Assembly (NCBI GenBank): GCA_020283715.1 | Contig: JAIQCW010000046.1 | Location: 1 to 53,671, forward strand | From: Cytauxzoon felis | Lineage: Eukaryota; Apicomplexa; Aconoidasida; Piroplasmida; Theileriidae | Length of the DNA: 53,671 nt | Direction of reading: 5' to 3' | The notes under the pieces: generated by a model | What the model saw: the letters and a program-made list of their open reading frames with translations, nothing else | What the model was told of the DNA's origin: nothing | Databases searched by the model: none | Shown: piece after piece, positions 7,252 to 51,900 of the stretch | Position numbering within the stretch: the stretch's first letter is position 1 | Layout of the letters: each line of letters begins with the position of its first letter | Program-made: the position numbers and the translations under genes

Positions 7252-7476
7252 AAGGAAGAGTAGGATTGACCATCATGTTAAAGTGGAAGATAAGGTAATA
7301 GAAAATAGTATATATAATGGATAGTATATTGATAATGTTATGTTTTGATTGTTATAGATCATACTGGGTATACATCACCTCTGGTTGTTATGACTTCGTT
7401 ATGGTGTTTTGTATTTTGAATGTATTGATTTCTAAATTATATAAAATTTTTTATATTATTTTTAATTTCGATTAAT

Positions 7477-9911
7477 ATGGTTGAATTGAATAAGGATAAG
7501 CCGTCGAATGAGGTTGATGATAATGATTTGGCCAATTCTGATATTGTAACAAAATATCGCACGGCAGCAAATATTAGTAATTTAGCACTCAAAAAAATTA
7601 TAGCAGAGATTAAAAATGGTTTATAATATAATATCCCATCTAATTAATTATATTTTATTTAGGTATATCAACAAAATATTTATGTGATCTTGGAGATTCT
7701 GTCATCAATGAAGAATCTTCCAAACTCTATAACAAGAAAGAAAATGGTAGAAAGGTATACCTATGAATCATATAATTATCAATCATCCATATTCTATAGA
7801 TTGAAAAGGGTATAGCATTTCCTACATGTATAACGTTGAACGAGTTATGTGATTATCATTCGCCAATTACCGATGATATCCTCATAAAAGATGGAGATTT
7901 AGTTAAAATGTGTGTTGAATATTTTAAAACTCCCTTACTTCCGTCCTCATCACCCATCTAATTCCTTTATTCAACCTAAGGGTTTCTCTTTCCACTCGCC
8001 TCCATCTGAGGTCCATAATTTCCATTGCATGGAGCTCTCCACCTGAGGTCAGTCCTGCCGTCAGCTCTTCTATTTACCTATCTCTAAAGAGAAAAGCCAC
8101 TCCCGGAGATCGTGGCGGTGATGAAGACTAGTACTGGACCTCAAGTGGAATACCTGGAAGCGATCTACGGGAGCTGGAAGGGGAAGTAAATGGATGAAGC
8201 CTCCACGGCTAGTGGAACAGTGGTTGTAACCTCAGGTGGATCAGTCTATATTATTTTTGTGTTTTATTTTTTCTATATAGTACATTGGCATGTCATATTG
8301 ATGGTTATATCGGATCTGTTAGTCATACGGTATTTGTTGGTGATGTGATAAATGGTAGACAAGCGGATGTACTTAAAGCTGCATGGTTATGTAGTGAAGC
8401 TGCATTAAGAAAGATTAAACCTGGTGTATCTAGTAATGATGTTACTAAAGTTATTGAAAAAGTTGCAGCTGAATTCAATTGTACACCTGTTGTAGGATTT
8501 TATACTCATGAAATGAAAAGACATATCATAGAAGGTAGTAGATATTTTGCTAACACCACAAAAATTGATGATAAATGTGATGCCATCACATTCGGACTTA
8601 ATGAAGTCTACTCACTTAATGTCATCATATCCACACAAGATATCAAACCTAAACCTACCGAACACCAAGTCACCGTATATAAAACCGATATTCAAAATCG
8701 ATACACACTCAGAACCACACTCGGACGATCATTCATGTCACAAATCAATTCAAGTATGTTTATTACAAATTAATGAAGTTACTGCTCAACTCGAGGTCCA
8801 ATCCAACTCTCCTTCTCTTGCAGAGAGCTCTTCTACACCTGAGGTTAGTCCTGCCGTCAGCTCTTCCAATTACCTATCTCTAAAGAGTAGAGCCACTCCC
8901 GGAGATCGTGGCGAAGATGGAGGTGGAGTAGACCTCAAGTGGAACCCGTAGCTGATCTCAGGGAAGCGGAGGGGGAAGTAGATAAGGAAGGCACCACGCC
9001 TAGTGGAAAGACCTCAGTTGGAACGGCGAGTGGATGATCTTTCGGTTGACAATTATTTGGGATTGATTTTATTGTATACTGTTATATATATTTTAATTGT
9101 ATAGAGTATCCTGTTTTTCCATTTCATATAAAGTATATTGATGATGAACGTTCATTAAAGGTTGGATTACCAGAGGCGTTACGTCATAGTTTGGTTAAGC
9201 CATATCATATAATAACATTCAAGAATGGTGAATATGTTGCACATTTCAAATGCACAATCATACTATCATCTACCGGTATCAAAAAAATCTCCGGAATACC
9301 ATTCGAACAACTCGATACATGCAATTCACAATACAAAATCGAAGACAATGATATCAACCAACTACTATCGGTATGTTCACCAACAAATAAAATCAACAAA
9401 TTTCCAACAACCTGAATTTATAAACACCATATGTCGTCTTGTAGACAGCTCTCCACCTGAGGTCAAATCCAACTCTGTTCTCTTGCAGAGAGCTCTTCTA
9501 ATTACCTATCTCTAAAGAGTAGAGCCACTCCCGGAGATCGTGGCGTTAACCCGGAAGAACGTAAATATTCAACCCCTAAGAACAGGAATTATACCCGGAG
9601 GAACAAAATATATTGACCCGGAAGAACAGACCTTAGCTATAGAAGATGTAACCTCAGGTGGAATACCCGAAAGTGATCTCAGGGAACTTGAGGGAGAAGT
9701 AAATGGAAAAGCTGTCTGCAAGACGAAGAGAGTTGGATTGGACCTCAGGTGGAGCGGCAAAGATAGAGATTAGACCTTAGGTGTAGTTATAGCACCTTAG
9801 TTCTATATTCATTCTGCTTCTTCGATGTAATTAATACACTGAATATTATAGGCACCTATAAATCCTAAGAAGAAGAGTGCTGTTAAAGTGGATAATGAGT
9901 TGAAGAATTAA
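7477..9911 (+). CDS. PA2G4: Proliferation-associated 2G4 / EBP1 homologue
   Basis: The spliced product follows the pita-bread fold of PA2G4/EBP1, a methionine-aminopeptidase relative that binds ribosomes near the exit tunnel and lacks peptidase activity. Matching blocks in order: VTKYRTAANISNLAL, KGIAFPTCITLNELCDYHSP, DGDLVKI joined by splicing to TLACHIDGYIGSVSHT, GRQADVLKAAWLCSEAALR, FNCTPVVGF, LNEVYSLNVIIST, YKTDIQNRY, and a lysine-containing tail (NPKKKSAVKVD). The first two introns are about 45-50 nt. The next three (about 7912-8281, 8752-9105, 9370-9851) each contain one complete palindromic element. All junctions join in phase, for example AAAAT|T ACA TTG GCA. The last exon is 9852-9911. 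The start ATG at 7477 gives a normal family N terminus. Confidence 0.92.
7991..8240. repeat. Palindromic element 6 (PA2G4 intron)
   Basis: CCACTCGCC start, CCATTGCATGG hairpin, CTGCCGTCAG hairpin, CTCTAAAGAG hairpin, the GCCAC/GTGGC stem around TCCCGGAGATC at 8096-8116, a GCGATCTACGGGA arm, and ACCTCAGGTGG at the right end. Confidence 0.9.
8786..9034. repeat. Palindromic element 7 (PA2G4 intron)
   Basis: Contains CTCTTGCAGAG and CTGCCGTCAG hairpins, CTCTAAAGAG, the GCCAC/GTGGC core, the CGTAGCTGATCTCAGGG arm, and CCACGCCTAGTGG near its right end. Confidence 0.9.
9433..9754. repeat. Palindromic element 8 with GGAAGAAC module (PA2G4 intron)
   Basis: Left arm with GTCTTGTAGAC and CTCTTGCAGAG hairpins, CTCTAAAGAG and the GCCAC/GTGGC core. 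The centre (about 9545-9630) is the GGAAGAAC module. The right arm holds GTCTGCAAGAC and ends ACCTCAGGTGG. Confidence 0.9.
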
Positions 9912-48974: not shown

Positions 48975-51900
48975 ATGGGCAGCAAATTATCTCACAGTAA
49001 ATCAAACGATAACAGATACAATTTCAAAAGGATGAGCTTCCGTAAAAACAATAATGATGAAATTACCATACATCCCGGTATGTTTACATCATCAGATACC
49101 ATATCACCCTCATTATTAAACATATCCACCAGTCCATCTGAGGTCCAATCCACCTCTTTTCGTCCTGCCGTCAGCTTCTCTATTTATCTCCCCCTCCGCT
49201 TCCCCGAGATCAGCTCCGGGTTCCACTTGAGGTCCAGTACTATTCTCCATTCCATCTACATCTCCACCTTCGCCACGATCTCTGGGAGTGGCTTTACTCT
49301 TTAGAGATAGGTAAATAGAAGAGCTCCATGCAATGGAAAAGATGGACCTCAGGTGGAACGGCGAGTGGAAGGGGTGAAGGTAGAAGTAATGGACACGTCG
49401 TGTAGACAACACTTCAGTCGTTACACTCCTTCGAATCATTGATTACATTCGTTTGGTTATGATGTTCATTTAATATGGCTATTTATAAATTTAACATTAG
49501 GTATGTGTATTGGTAAATCGAATAGGGAATTTCGTAGTTATTATACGCCTTCAAGGAGATTAGGAAGTGGTGCATATGGTGATGTATATTTATGTACTTT
49601 TAATACAACCGGTAATCAATATGCAGTTAAAGTGGTTAATAAATCTGATGTTAAATCTAATTTAATTGGATCGAGTTTATTAGATGAAGTATATTATCTA
49701 AAACAATTAGATCATCCTAATATCGCAAAACTATATGACTTTTTTGAAGATAAAGTGGCATATTATATTGTTATGGAATTATGTTCTGGTGGTGAATTAT
49801 TTGATGAAATCATTAAATGTAAAAAATTTAATGAATATTATTCCGCTATTATTATGAGACAAGTATTATCTGGGATATGCTATTTACATAAAAATAATAT
49901 TGTACATCGTGATATTAAACCTGAAAATTTATTATTAGAAAAAAAGGATATCAACTCTAGTATTAAAATTGTAGACTTTGGATTATCAACTTATATGACA
50001 AAAAATGCACTTAGAGAACGACTTGGGACGTAAGTTTTATATAAATTTTATTCTCCTACTACATGTTGGAATATATATAGGGTGTATTATATTGCCCCAG
50101 AAGTACTCAAAAGACGATATGATGAAAAATGCGATGTATGGTCATGCGGTGTCATACTCTATATACTACTCTGTGGTATTTATAAATATCATATCCACCA
50201 TATATCTACAGGATATCCACCATTCGCCGGTGGAAGCGATTCCGAAATCATCAAGAAAATCGAACGCGGAGTCGTAAGTTTACTCTATGAACATTTTCCA
50301 CCCGAGGTCCAATCCAACTCTCCTTCCACTAGGCGTGGAGCCTTCTCCACCTGAGGTCCATCCTGCCGTCAGCTTTTCTAATTACCTATCTCTAAAGAGT
50401 ATAGCCACTCCCGGAGATCGTGGCGAGGTTTAGTACAAGACCTCAAGTGGAACCCGAAAGTGATCTCCGGGAGCTTGAGGGGGAAGTAAATAGAAAAGCT
50501 GACGGCAGGATGGACCTCAGGTAGAGGGATGGTACAATCTTCCGTTACTGTATTTTATTTGCAAGCTTATATATATATATTTCAGTTTACTTTTTCGGTT
50601 AGGGAATGGTCTCATATATCACCAGATGTTAAGGATTTGATAAGATTGATGTTGACGTTTGATAGTTCTAAACGTTTAACGGCTGAGCAGGCTTTACAGC
50701 ATCCATGGATTGTGAAATTTGCCAAGGCTCAAAATAATAAAATTGAATTGGAATCACAAGCTTTAGCACTTGATAATTTAAGATCATTTAGAAAAACACA
50801 GAAATTAGCACAAGCCGCTATGTTATTAATGGCTAATAAATATACTACAATGGAAGAAACTGCCGAACTCACAGCTTTATTCAAAGAATTAGACGTCAAT
50901 GGTGACGGAACACTCGATAAAAAAGAACTCATCAATGGATACTCCAAAATACAAAAGGTATCACAACACATCATACATACGAAATATAAACGATATGTTT
51001 ATACTCTACCTGAGGTTACAATCCAACTCATCCATTAGTCGTTCCACTTGAGGTCGTCTTGCAGACAGCTCTTCTAATTATTTCCCCCTCCGCTTCCCTG
51101 AGATCAGCTACGGGTTCTCCACTCGAGGTTCAGTACTATTCTTCATTCCACCTTCATGTCCACCCTCATCTTCGCCACGATCTCCGGGAGTGGCTATACT
51201 CTTTAGAGATAGGTAATTGGAAGAGCTGACGGCAGGACGACCTACGTTGGATTGGACCTCGAGTGGAGAGCTGTCTGCAAGACGAAGAGAGTTGTATTGG
51301 ACCTCGAGTGGATGTGACTCAGTAATTATTTTATATATGGTTATAAAAATATTATATAGAAGATGAGGAATTCGTGTGATGTATTGGATGATAAGCAGAT
51401 TGAGGAGGAGGTTGATATTATACTTAATGCAGTTGATTTTGATATGAGTGGTTCAGTTGATTATTCTGGTATATTTGATAATTATATTATACATTTATTT
51501 ACTTTATAGAATTTGTTACTGGATGTATGGATAAAAATATGCTATTATCTAAAGAACGATTAAAACTCGCATTCTCACTATTCGATACCGACGGATCCGG
51601 AAAAATCTCCAAAAATGAACTCTCACAGGTCAGTACCATCAACAATATAATATACATAATATCCATCCTTCCACCTGAGGTTATAGTCCTACTCCCCTTT
51701 CCACTCGCCTCCACTTGTGGTCCTGCCGTCAGCTTCTCTATTTACTTCCCCTTCCAGCTCCCGTGGATCGCTTCCAGGTATTCCACTTGAGGTCTAATAA
51801 CTACCCCCACCCTTTCCACTAGGCGTGGAGCCTTCTCTATTTACTTCCCCTTCCAGCTCCCGTGGATCGCTTCCAGGTTCCACTTGAGATCTAATAACTA

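Follow-up and report, generated by a model that had tools for sequence, protein, structure and literature searches.

The window analysed here is a whole contig of Cytauxzoon felis (JAIQCW010000046.1, assembly GCA_020283715.1), read on the forward strand over its full 53,671 nucleotides. It holds protein-coding genes, among them those for PRPS and a GMP reductase, and a dense series of short fold-back elements, each built of a left and a right arm when complete and of a single arm when only half is present (table 1). A sequence-only reading of the window had claimed that the composition of the top strand reverses at the complete elements, with G+T to the right of an element and A+C to the left of the next, independently of gene direction, and had pointed to bidirectional replication origins as a known cause of such a switch, with repair synthesis and bidirectional noncoding transcription as alternatives. 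The switch is real and strong. It is confined to a few hundred base pairs on either side of the elements, and we tentatively attribute it to DNA synthesis that would start at the elements and run outward.

Throughout, elements were defined by the clustering of repeated 12-mers, independently of skew, in a base sample of 253,671 bases composed of the window and 200 kb from three other contigs (C4, C8, and C24). A left and a right arm are carried by 117 clusters, of which 116 were measurable; element edges are approximate, and 25 bp beside each cluster were left out in most flank measures. Keto skew is defined as (G+T-A-C)/n. Coding regions were predicted with a self-trained seven-state hidden Markov model, and the resulting gene models are approximate and may miss exons. 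The skew analysis covers one genome, at the level of its sequence only. There is one cluster per 1.0 kb in the window and one per 2.1 kb on C4, an about 2-fold difference in element density between contigs. A 30-mer taken from one arm has 578 exact copies in the 8,623,106-bp genome (181 contigs).

The four hand counts on which the claim was based (8281-8340, 8641-8700, 39601-39660, and 40021-40080) were all exact on recount. We tested 45 of the 46 inter-element segments of the window, one shorter than 150 bp being dropped, and the predicted succession of G+T and A+C was true in 41. Averaged over the 45 segments, keto skew is +0.140 for the left part and -0.139 for the right (Wilcoxon p = 1e-8). 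GC skew (+0.27 left, -0.25 right; 42/45 conforming) and TA skew (+0.09 left, -0.10 right; 38/45) show the same pattern, and purine skew shows no effect in these segments (25/45, p = 0.49). Two segments toward the left end (3195-4484 and 4793-6958), segment 33439-35575, and two blocks beside half elements (18457-20752 and 43102-45401) show the effect weakly or not at all. The cumulative-skew check proposed with the claim gave the expected result: keto skew falls before and rises after 31 of the 35 complete elements of the window, 29/36 on C4, 30/31 on C8, and 12/14 on C24. With cumulative TA skew alone, fewer elements conform overall (30, 21, 20, and 12, respectively).

Across the base sample, G+T is in excess on the right relative to the left at 115 of the 116 complete elements, the sole contrary one lying on C4 (contrast -0.18). 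The mean contrast is 0.289. Element-free points have a mean contrast of 0.002 (standard deviation [sd] 0.123), and a value above 0.289 is reached at 1.26% of 65,719 such overlapping points versus 53% of the complete elements. When the element set was shifted circularly, the null sd was 0.034 in the window and 0.019 on the other contigs, against observed values of 0.322 and 0.275; these were matched by one of 2000 shifts in the window, a shift of only 11 bases, and by 0/2000 on the other contigs. Ten extra clusters on two further contigs (loci L001-L008) are all positive, with contrasts of 0.05 to 0.53, although L005 yielded no cluster, L003 and L004 apparently hold the same one, and some may be half elements. 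By eye, left arms are pyrimidine-rich and right arms purine-rich; since flank purine skew is nil, a leak of arm composition into the flanks is ruled out. Strong skew switches also occur at element-free points, 13 of them upward (position 26019 of the window and twelve on C4, including 38646, 8614, and 108495) and 6 downward. The upward ones could have arisen by chance or could mark elements that were lost or went unrecognised.

That the switch is anchored on complete elements regardless of gene direction was borne out by four-fold degenerate sites and by the coding context of the elements. Gene orientation as a full explanation, which the sequence-only reading had named as refuting its claim, fails. 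At four-fold sites 25-250 bp to the right of elements, GC skew is +0.745 in plus-strand genes and +0.766 in minus-strand genes; to the left, it is -0.819 and -0.640. More than 400 bp away, values range from -0.20 to +0.10. For the window taken separately, the near-site values are +0.58 and +0.76 (right) and -0.90 and -1.00 (left, the last corresponding to 11 C and 0 G). Noncoding flanks are skewed likewise (+0.29 right, -0.24 left). The contrast is positive at 11/11 elements with plus-strand coding sequence on both sides, 18/18 with minus-strand coding sequence on both sides, 33/33 with no predicted coding sequence within 150 bp, and 53/54 in mixed contexts. Gene direction and codon position are thereby rejected as causes. 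Because G+T-rich exon starts combined with A+C-rich exon ends would mimic strand independence, we also tested the ends of predicted exons far from elements. The bias at 5' ends is +0.037 far from elements (n = 76) and +0.174 near them (n = 56); at 3' ends, it is -0.042 (n = 56) and -0.183 (n = 67). An exon-end effect is thus too small, far from elements, to be the cause.

The base changes are of one class. On the outward strand (the one that points away from the element), the composition of four-fold sites at a distance of 75-125 bp is ~25% A, 1-2% C, 21-24% G, and 51% T, versus 41-44% A, 7-8% C, 8-9% G, and 41-43% T at 400-1000 bp. C makes up about 1-2% of four-fold sites located 50-150 bp away from elements and 7-9% of those beyond 400 bp. 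Relative to far sites, the outward-strand G/A odds are multiplied by 3.8 (95% confidence interval [CI] 3.0-4.9) and the T/C odds by 6.7 (CI 4.5-10.9), and the purine fraction near elements is unchanged at 0.495 (CI 0.465-0.526). Both A-to-G and C-to-T are therefore favored on the outward strand, and the changes are transitions only. If composition is at equilibrium and the reverse rates are unchanged, the extra A-to-G and C-to-T would amount to ~2.8 and ~5.7 times background, respectively. No strong dinucleotide preference exists beyond the base shift (ratios from 0.73 for GG to 1.15), which speaks against a deaminase with a strong context.

The range is short. On the three other contigs (200 kb), flank skew in successive 50-bp bins is +0.14, +0.20, +0.14, and +0.09 to the right and -0.14, -0.19, -0.11, and -0.07 to the left. 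It is small or zero beyond about 300-350 bp, including in bins out to 5 kb at elements with a distant neighbor. The decay is described by a sigmoid with its midpoint 207 bp from the cluster edge and a width of 58 bp, and this four-parameter curve beats a three-parameter exponential by 11 log units. Such a midpoint is too short for ordinary replicons, and we rejected a leading/lagging asymmetry of whole replicons on this ground.

The elements themselves have a median cluster length of 219-226 bp. The 117 clusters with inverted arms are dispersed copies with terminal inverted repeats, in the manner of miniature inverted-repeat transposable elements (MITEs). Arms fall into two classes, A and B. 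Among the 102 short complete elements, 50 are A-left/B-right (e.g., 15181-15409), 37 the reverse (e.g., 8019-8240), 5 AA, and 3 BB, and 7 have an unclassified arm; 10 of the 15 long elements (e.g., 13955-14400) are AA. Most elements thus have a direction. The flank bias is alike beside A arms (0.144, n = 126) and B arms (0.153, n = 97) and averages 0.071 beside unclassified arms (n = 9). Two elements were folded as single-stranded DNA, and both form better fold-backs than shuffled sequences do (z = -2.76 and -7.65). By eye, loop-like words GATCTnnGGGA are common to differing self-complementary stems, as if hairpin shape rather than sequence were kept in the arm modules. Of 12 hairpin-like modules folded alone as DNA, only two, with CCAC/GTGG, clearly beat shuffles; generic hairpins free of elements numbered only 4 in the sample. 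Contrast shows no significant correlation with element length, folding energy, or GC content (rho 0.12, -0.05, and -0.16), nor with similarity to other copies, taken as element age (rho -0.05, p 0.63).

The sd of flank skew at complete elements, 0.090 over 232 flanks (15 of which are at or below zero), does not exceed the 0.097 of 480 element-free windows, and 5% of the 232 flanks are assigned to an unskewed class by a mixture fit. The process therefore concerns nearly all complete elements. If the bias accrues after insertion, young insertions must be few and nearly all complete elements would be old in place. Inside the elements, no joint bias of the flank type was seen: keto skew is 0.023 over 3,827 bases in the interiors of the 15 long elements, and low-frequency arm variants, in small counts, give A>G/T>C ratios of 2.0, 1.4, and 2.6 and C>T/G>A ratios of 0.6, 0.95, and 0.7 at three frequency cut-offs, so that an A>G excess alone may exist in the arms. 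As low-frequency arm variants are few and no comparable arm bias is present, homogenisation or constraint seems to act on the elements themselves as their flanks mutate.

Half elements are less affected. The 28 automatic calls have an outer bias of 0.083 (standard error [SE] 0.020) and an inner bias of 0.023 (SE 0.022, n = 19), but nine of them have a nearby cluster on the inner side, and of these nine at least two (31811-31917 and 46158-46269) are arms of long elements. For the 19 isolated ones, the outer bias is 0.062 (SE 0.019), weaker than the 0.145 of complete elements, and the inner bias 0.023 (SE 0.022). One-sidedness of the half elements was not retained, the difference (0.039, SE 0.025) being nonsignificant.

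Table 1. Elements and inter-element segments of the window (positions in nucleotides)
Feature	Position	Strand	Remarks
Complete element	943..1365	.	
Complete long element	1877..2342	.	Interior about 260 nt
Complete element	2895..3169	.	
Complete element	4510..4767	.	Little or no flank skew in 300-bp measure
Complete element	6984..7294	.	Right flank +0.15 (G+T-rich), left -0.01 (unskewed)
Complete element	8019..8240	.	Left of counted stretch 8281-8340; arms fold back, z = -2.76
Inter-element segment	8266..8763	.	Exon inside; keto skew +0.17 left half, -0.24 right half
Complete element	8789..9034	.	
Complete element	9448..9754	.	
Complete element	11100..11354	.	
Complete element	11718..11908	.	
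Complete long element	13955..14400	.	
Complete element	15181..15409	.	
Complete element	15724..16001	.	
Complete long element	16881..17279	.	
Half element	17928..17997	.	Right arm only
Half element	18349..18431	.	Left arm only
Complete element	20778..21032	.	
Complete element	21563..21863	.	
Complete element	22631..22884	.	
Complete element	23257..23439	.	Contrast almost nil (+0.02)
Complete element	24432..24662	.	
Complete element	25170..25445	.	
Complete element	28655..28862	.	Within long open reading frame
Complete element	30226..30404	.	
Long element by eye	31423..31918	.	Interior about 260 nt; arms called apart, uncounted
Half element	32546..32586	.	Left arm only
Element	33249..33413	.	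Left arm unclassified by automatic call; uncounted among complete
Half element	35601..35662	.	Right arm only
Half element	35990..36082	.	Right arm only
Complete element	36967..37229	.	
Complete element	37929..38194	.	
Complete element	38966..39182	.	PRPS exon 2 segment next on right
Inter-element segment with PRPS exon 2 (minus strand)	39208..40146		Keto skew +0.15 left part, -0.26 right part
Complete element (element 33)	40172..40384	.	Long fold-back, z = -7.65
Complete element	41106..41317	.	
Complete element	41708..41934	.	
Complete element	42454..42694	.	
Half element	43012..43076	.	Left arm only
Half element	45427..45506	.	Right arm only; 2.3 kb back to 43012-43076 unskewed
Long element by eye	46158..46593	.	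Arms called apart, uncounted among complete
Complete element	47809..48064	.	
Complete element	49138..49371	.	
Complete element	50303..50522	.	
Complete element	51008..51312	.	
Compound element	51669..52237	.	Several left arms, then right arm; counted as long
Complete element	52710..52936	.	
Two left arms	53330..53631	.	At contig end

Several places in the window stand apart. The element at 4510-4767, before the GMP reductase gene (top match in Theileria equi, 68% identity, among 120 matches listed), may be a recent insertion, with little flank skew over 4510-6958. At 43012-45506, two single arms enclose 2.3 kb holding a large minus-strand gene, presumably of a repeated, surface-type family; the block is unskewed, as if it were a gene cassette inside an element. 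Two long open reading frames, 28321-30168 (plus strand) and 52431-53492 (minus strand), contain elements, whose in-frame reading gives recurring peptide strings. A protein search with the second, rich in element peptides, returned no match at E 1e-3 among 1501 candidates, a weak hint that such peptides are absent from the searched proteins. The exon between 8266 and 8763 belongs to what we take to be a PA2G4-like protein. In PRPS exon 2, compared with 120 family members, the first 130 residues show a codon shift toward G+T (+0.05 to +0.19 per bin) and the last 90 a shift away from it (-0.15 and -0.17), a weak effect given standard errors of 0.08 to 0.17. Rfam gave no match to the window at gathering score and none to 7900-9800 at E 0.1, and a tRNA scan of the window with the bacterial-code setting found none.

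What was observed directly is where the bias lies, its sign, range, and strand, the class of substitution involved, and its association with complete elements. These observations point to recurrent mutation of one strand, most simply arising from outward DNA synthesis of roughly Okazaki length. We propose that synthesis would start at each complete element and run outward both ways for ~200 nt before ordinary machinery takes over, in a process active for long enough to reset the composition of the flanks. The new strand in either flank would be the one whose 5'-to-3' direction points away from the element. On it, G.T wobble mispairs (G opposite T and T opposite G) would lead to A-to-G and C-to-T changes, hence a drift to G+T. 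Because such mispairs yield exactly these two changes, outward synthesis would explain sign, substitution class, and tract length together. Most likely, the elements would be densely spaced, individually weak replication initiation sites, the ~200-nt zone corresponding to the initial Okazaki-sized tract synthesised on each leading strand until the main leading-strand polymerase takes over. We give this explanation, outward synthesis at the elements probably as replication initiation, a probability of about 0.45. Its mutational nature, the newly made state of the outward strand, and initiation as the start of synthesis are deduced from the pattern. Other features are those of an origin (a switch of sign, G+T on the outgoing strand, independence of gene direction, and presence at synonymous sites), and the bias recurs on contigs not used to find it. 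Initiation is preferred because, in yeast, DNA polymerase delta is reported to make about 180 bp, ~one Okazaki fragment, of each leading-strand start (PMC6728351), because local skew in humans is reported to be shaped by error-prone synthesis next to origins (PMC9645720), and because ORC1 sites are reported to lie ~800 bp apart in Plasmodium falciparum (PMC10085703), against one element cluster per 1.0-2.1 kb here.

Initiation, repair synthesis, and outward transcription with R-loops all give the same sign; none is decisively separated from the others, and initiation is our first choice. In the second, elements would break or stall forks and be repaired from other copies, the resected 5' strands being refilled outward over ~200 nt by error-prone synthesis. 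This would account for arms alike genome-wide (the 578 exact 30-mer copies) with few low-frequency variants beside four-fold sites that are strongly shifted, that is, for old places with homogenised sequence; the fold-back of both folded elements, the weaker effect at half elements, and the characteristic tract length also fit. Damage to exposed 3' overhangs would, however, give the opposite sign, so that polymerase error would have to dominate, and contrast shows no significant correlation with the length or folding energy of an element or with its similarity to other copies. We regard repair as rather unlikely, though the foremost of the alternatives. Transcription-linked asymmetry in mammals has the sign (G+T on the outward strand) that would result if bidirectional noncoding transcription or R-loops started in the arms, ran outward, and exposed the single non-template (outward) strand to deamination of A and C. 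That no strong context preference exists is compatible with spontaneous deamination, and isolated half elements are higher outside than inside; as that difference is not significant, some of this support is removed. Genes far from elements are little skewed on either strand, and transcription as such is therefore not the source here; moreover, A-to-G of the same order as C-to-T would be unusual for plain cytosine deamination. We judge this explanation unlikely, ranking it after repair. That elements merely landed where composition had already switched is very improbable: contrasts above their mean are rare at element-free points (1.26%, versus 53% of elements), four-fold C drops to about 1-2% near elements from 7-9% beyond 400 bp, and the preference would need to apply equally to noncoding DNA and to genes of either direction. 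An effect of selection, whether on exon ends, on splicing, or on codon use near introns that carry elements, would find some echo in the small same-sign effect at far predicted exon ends (+0.037 and -0.042). It is the least credible proposal given the bias at all 33 elements without predicted coding sequence within 150 bp, within the limits of an approximate predictor, and the skew of noncoding flanks (+0.29/-0.24).

Several observations weigh against replication initiation at the elements. The sign switch stood, but the plain origin picture of the sequence-only reading did not, skew being near zero beyond about 300-350 bp; an origin form is therefore limited to the first Okazaki-sized tract. 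Skew does not extend toward the next element, and strong fixed origins would be expected to leave a leading/lagging asymmetry, of which there is little beyond about 350 bp; this speaks mildly against them. The right-versus-left amplitude is uncorrelated between neighboring elements (rho 0.03, n = 107), so that fork direction leaves no independent trace. It is reported that no specific sequence motif marks Plasmodium origins (PMC10085703), and sequence-defined origins would be unusual in this light. The absence of a clear bias within elements demands an extra assumption of homogenisation or constraint, and the weak outer bias of isolated half elements (0.062) is not predicted if complete elements are required. 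A nuclear genome with thousands of repeat-defined replication starts, each leaving the mark of the early-tract polymerase in ~200 bp on either side and bending the proteins encoded there, so that initiation sites could be read directly off the sequence, is possible but less likely than not; the figure of thousands is extrapolated from element density in the 254-kb sample.

Whatever the process, a repeat occurring every 1.0-2.1 kb in the sampled DNA centers a strong, short-range, one-strand mutation regime that reaches coding sequence, and phylogenies and selection tests in this genome should account for the distance to the nearest element. If outward synthesis is the cause, start sites, tract lengths, and polymerase hand-over could be measured from sequence, and the elements would offer a model of how a repeat steers mutation and protein composition.

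Double-hairpin elements and MITE- or introner-like repeats are short, dispersed, and fold back. The elements described here resemble them in these respects, lie in introns and between genes, and differ from them by their two arm classes. We know of no flank bias around such repeats and, to our knowledge, no shared sequence repeat marks human constitutive origins. A survey of apicomplexans reports no class II transposons and, in T. equi, LINE-like (long interspersed nuclear element) sequences (PMC9141347). We did not find the present pattern in the open-access literature, as judged by titles and abstract openings, and skew switches are reported to have seldom been seen in eukaryotic genomes (PMC2924309). 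At Candida albicans centromere origins, the leading strand is described as rich in G and, less so, in T on each side of the switch, also when noncoding and four-fold sites only are considered (PMC2924309), as here. That pattern is described for eight centromeres and some telomeric sites, on a kilobase scale and with no shared sequence (PMC2924309), whereas in C. felis the switch recurs every 1-2 kb, ranges over 200 bp, and has a shared repeat at each occurrence. As at human constitutive origins, where local error-prone synthesis is held to shape skew (PMC9645720), the signal is local, but here it is tied to a dispersed repeat, with synonymous sites far above the far background. The yeast polymerase delta start tract is similar in length (about 180 bp) and in its outward direction; it was reported as a measurement of polymerase usage (PMC6728351), whereas the pattern around the C. 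felis elements is one of base composition.

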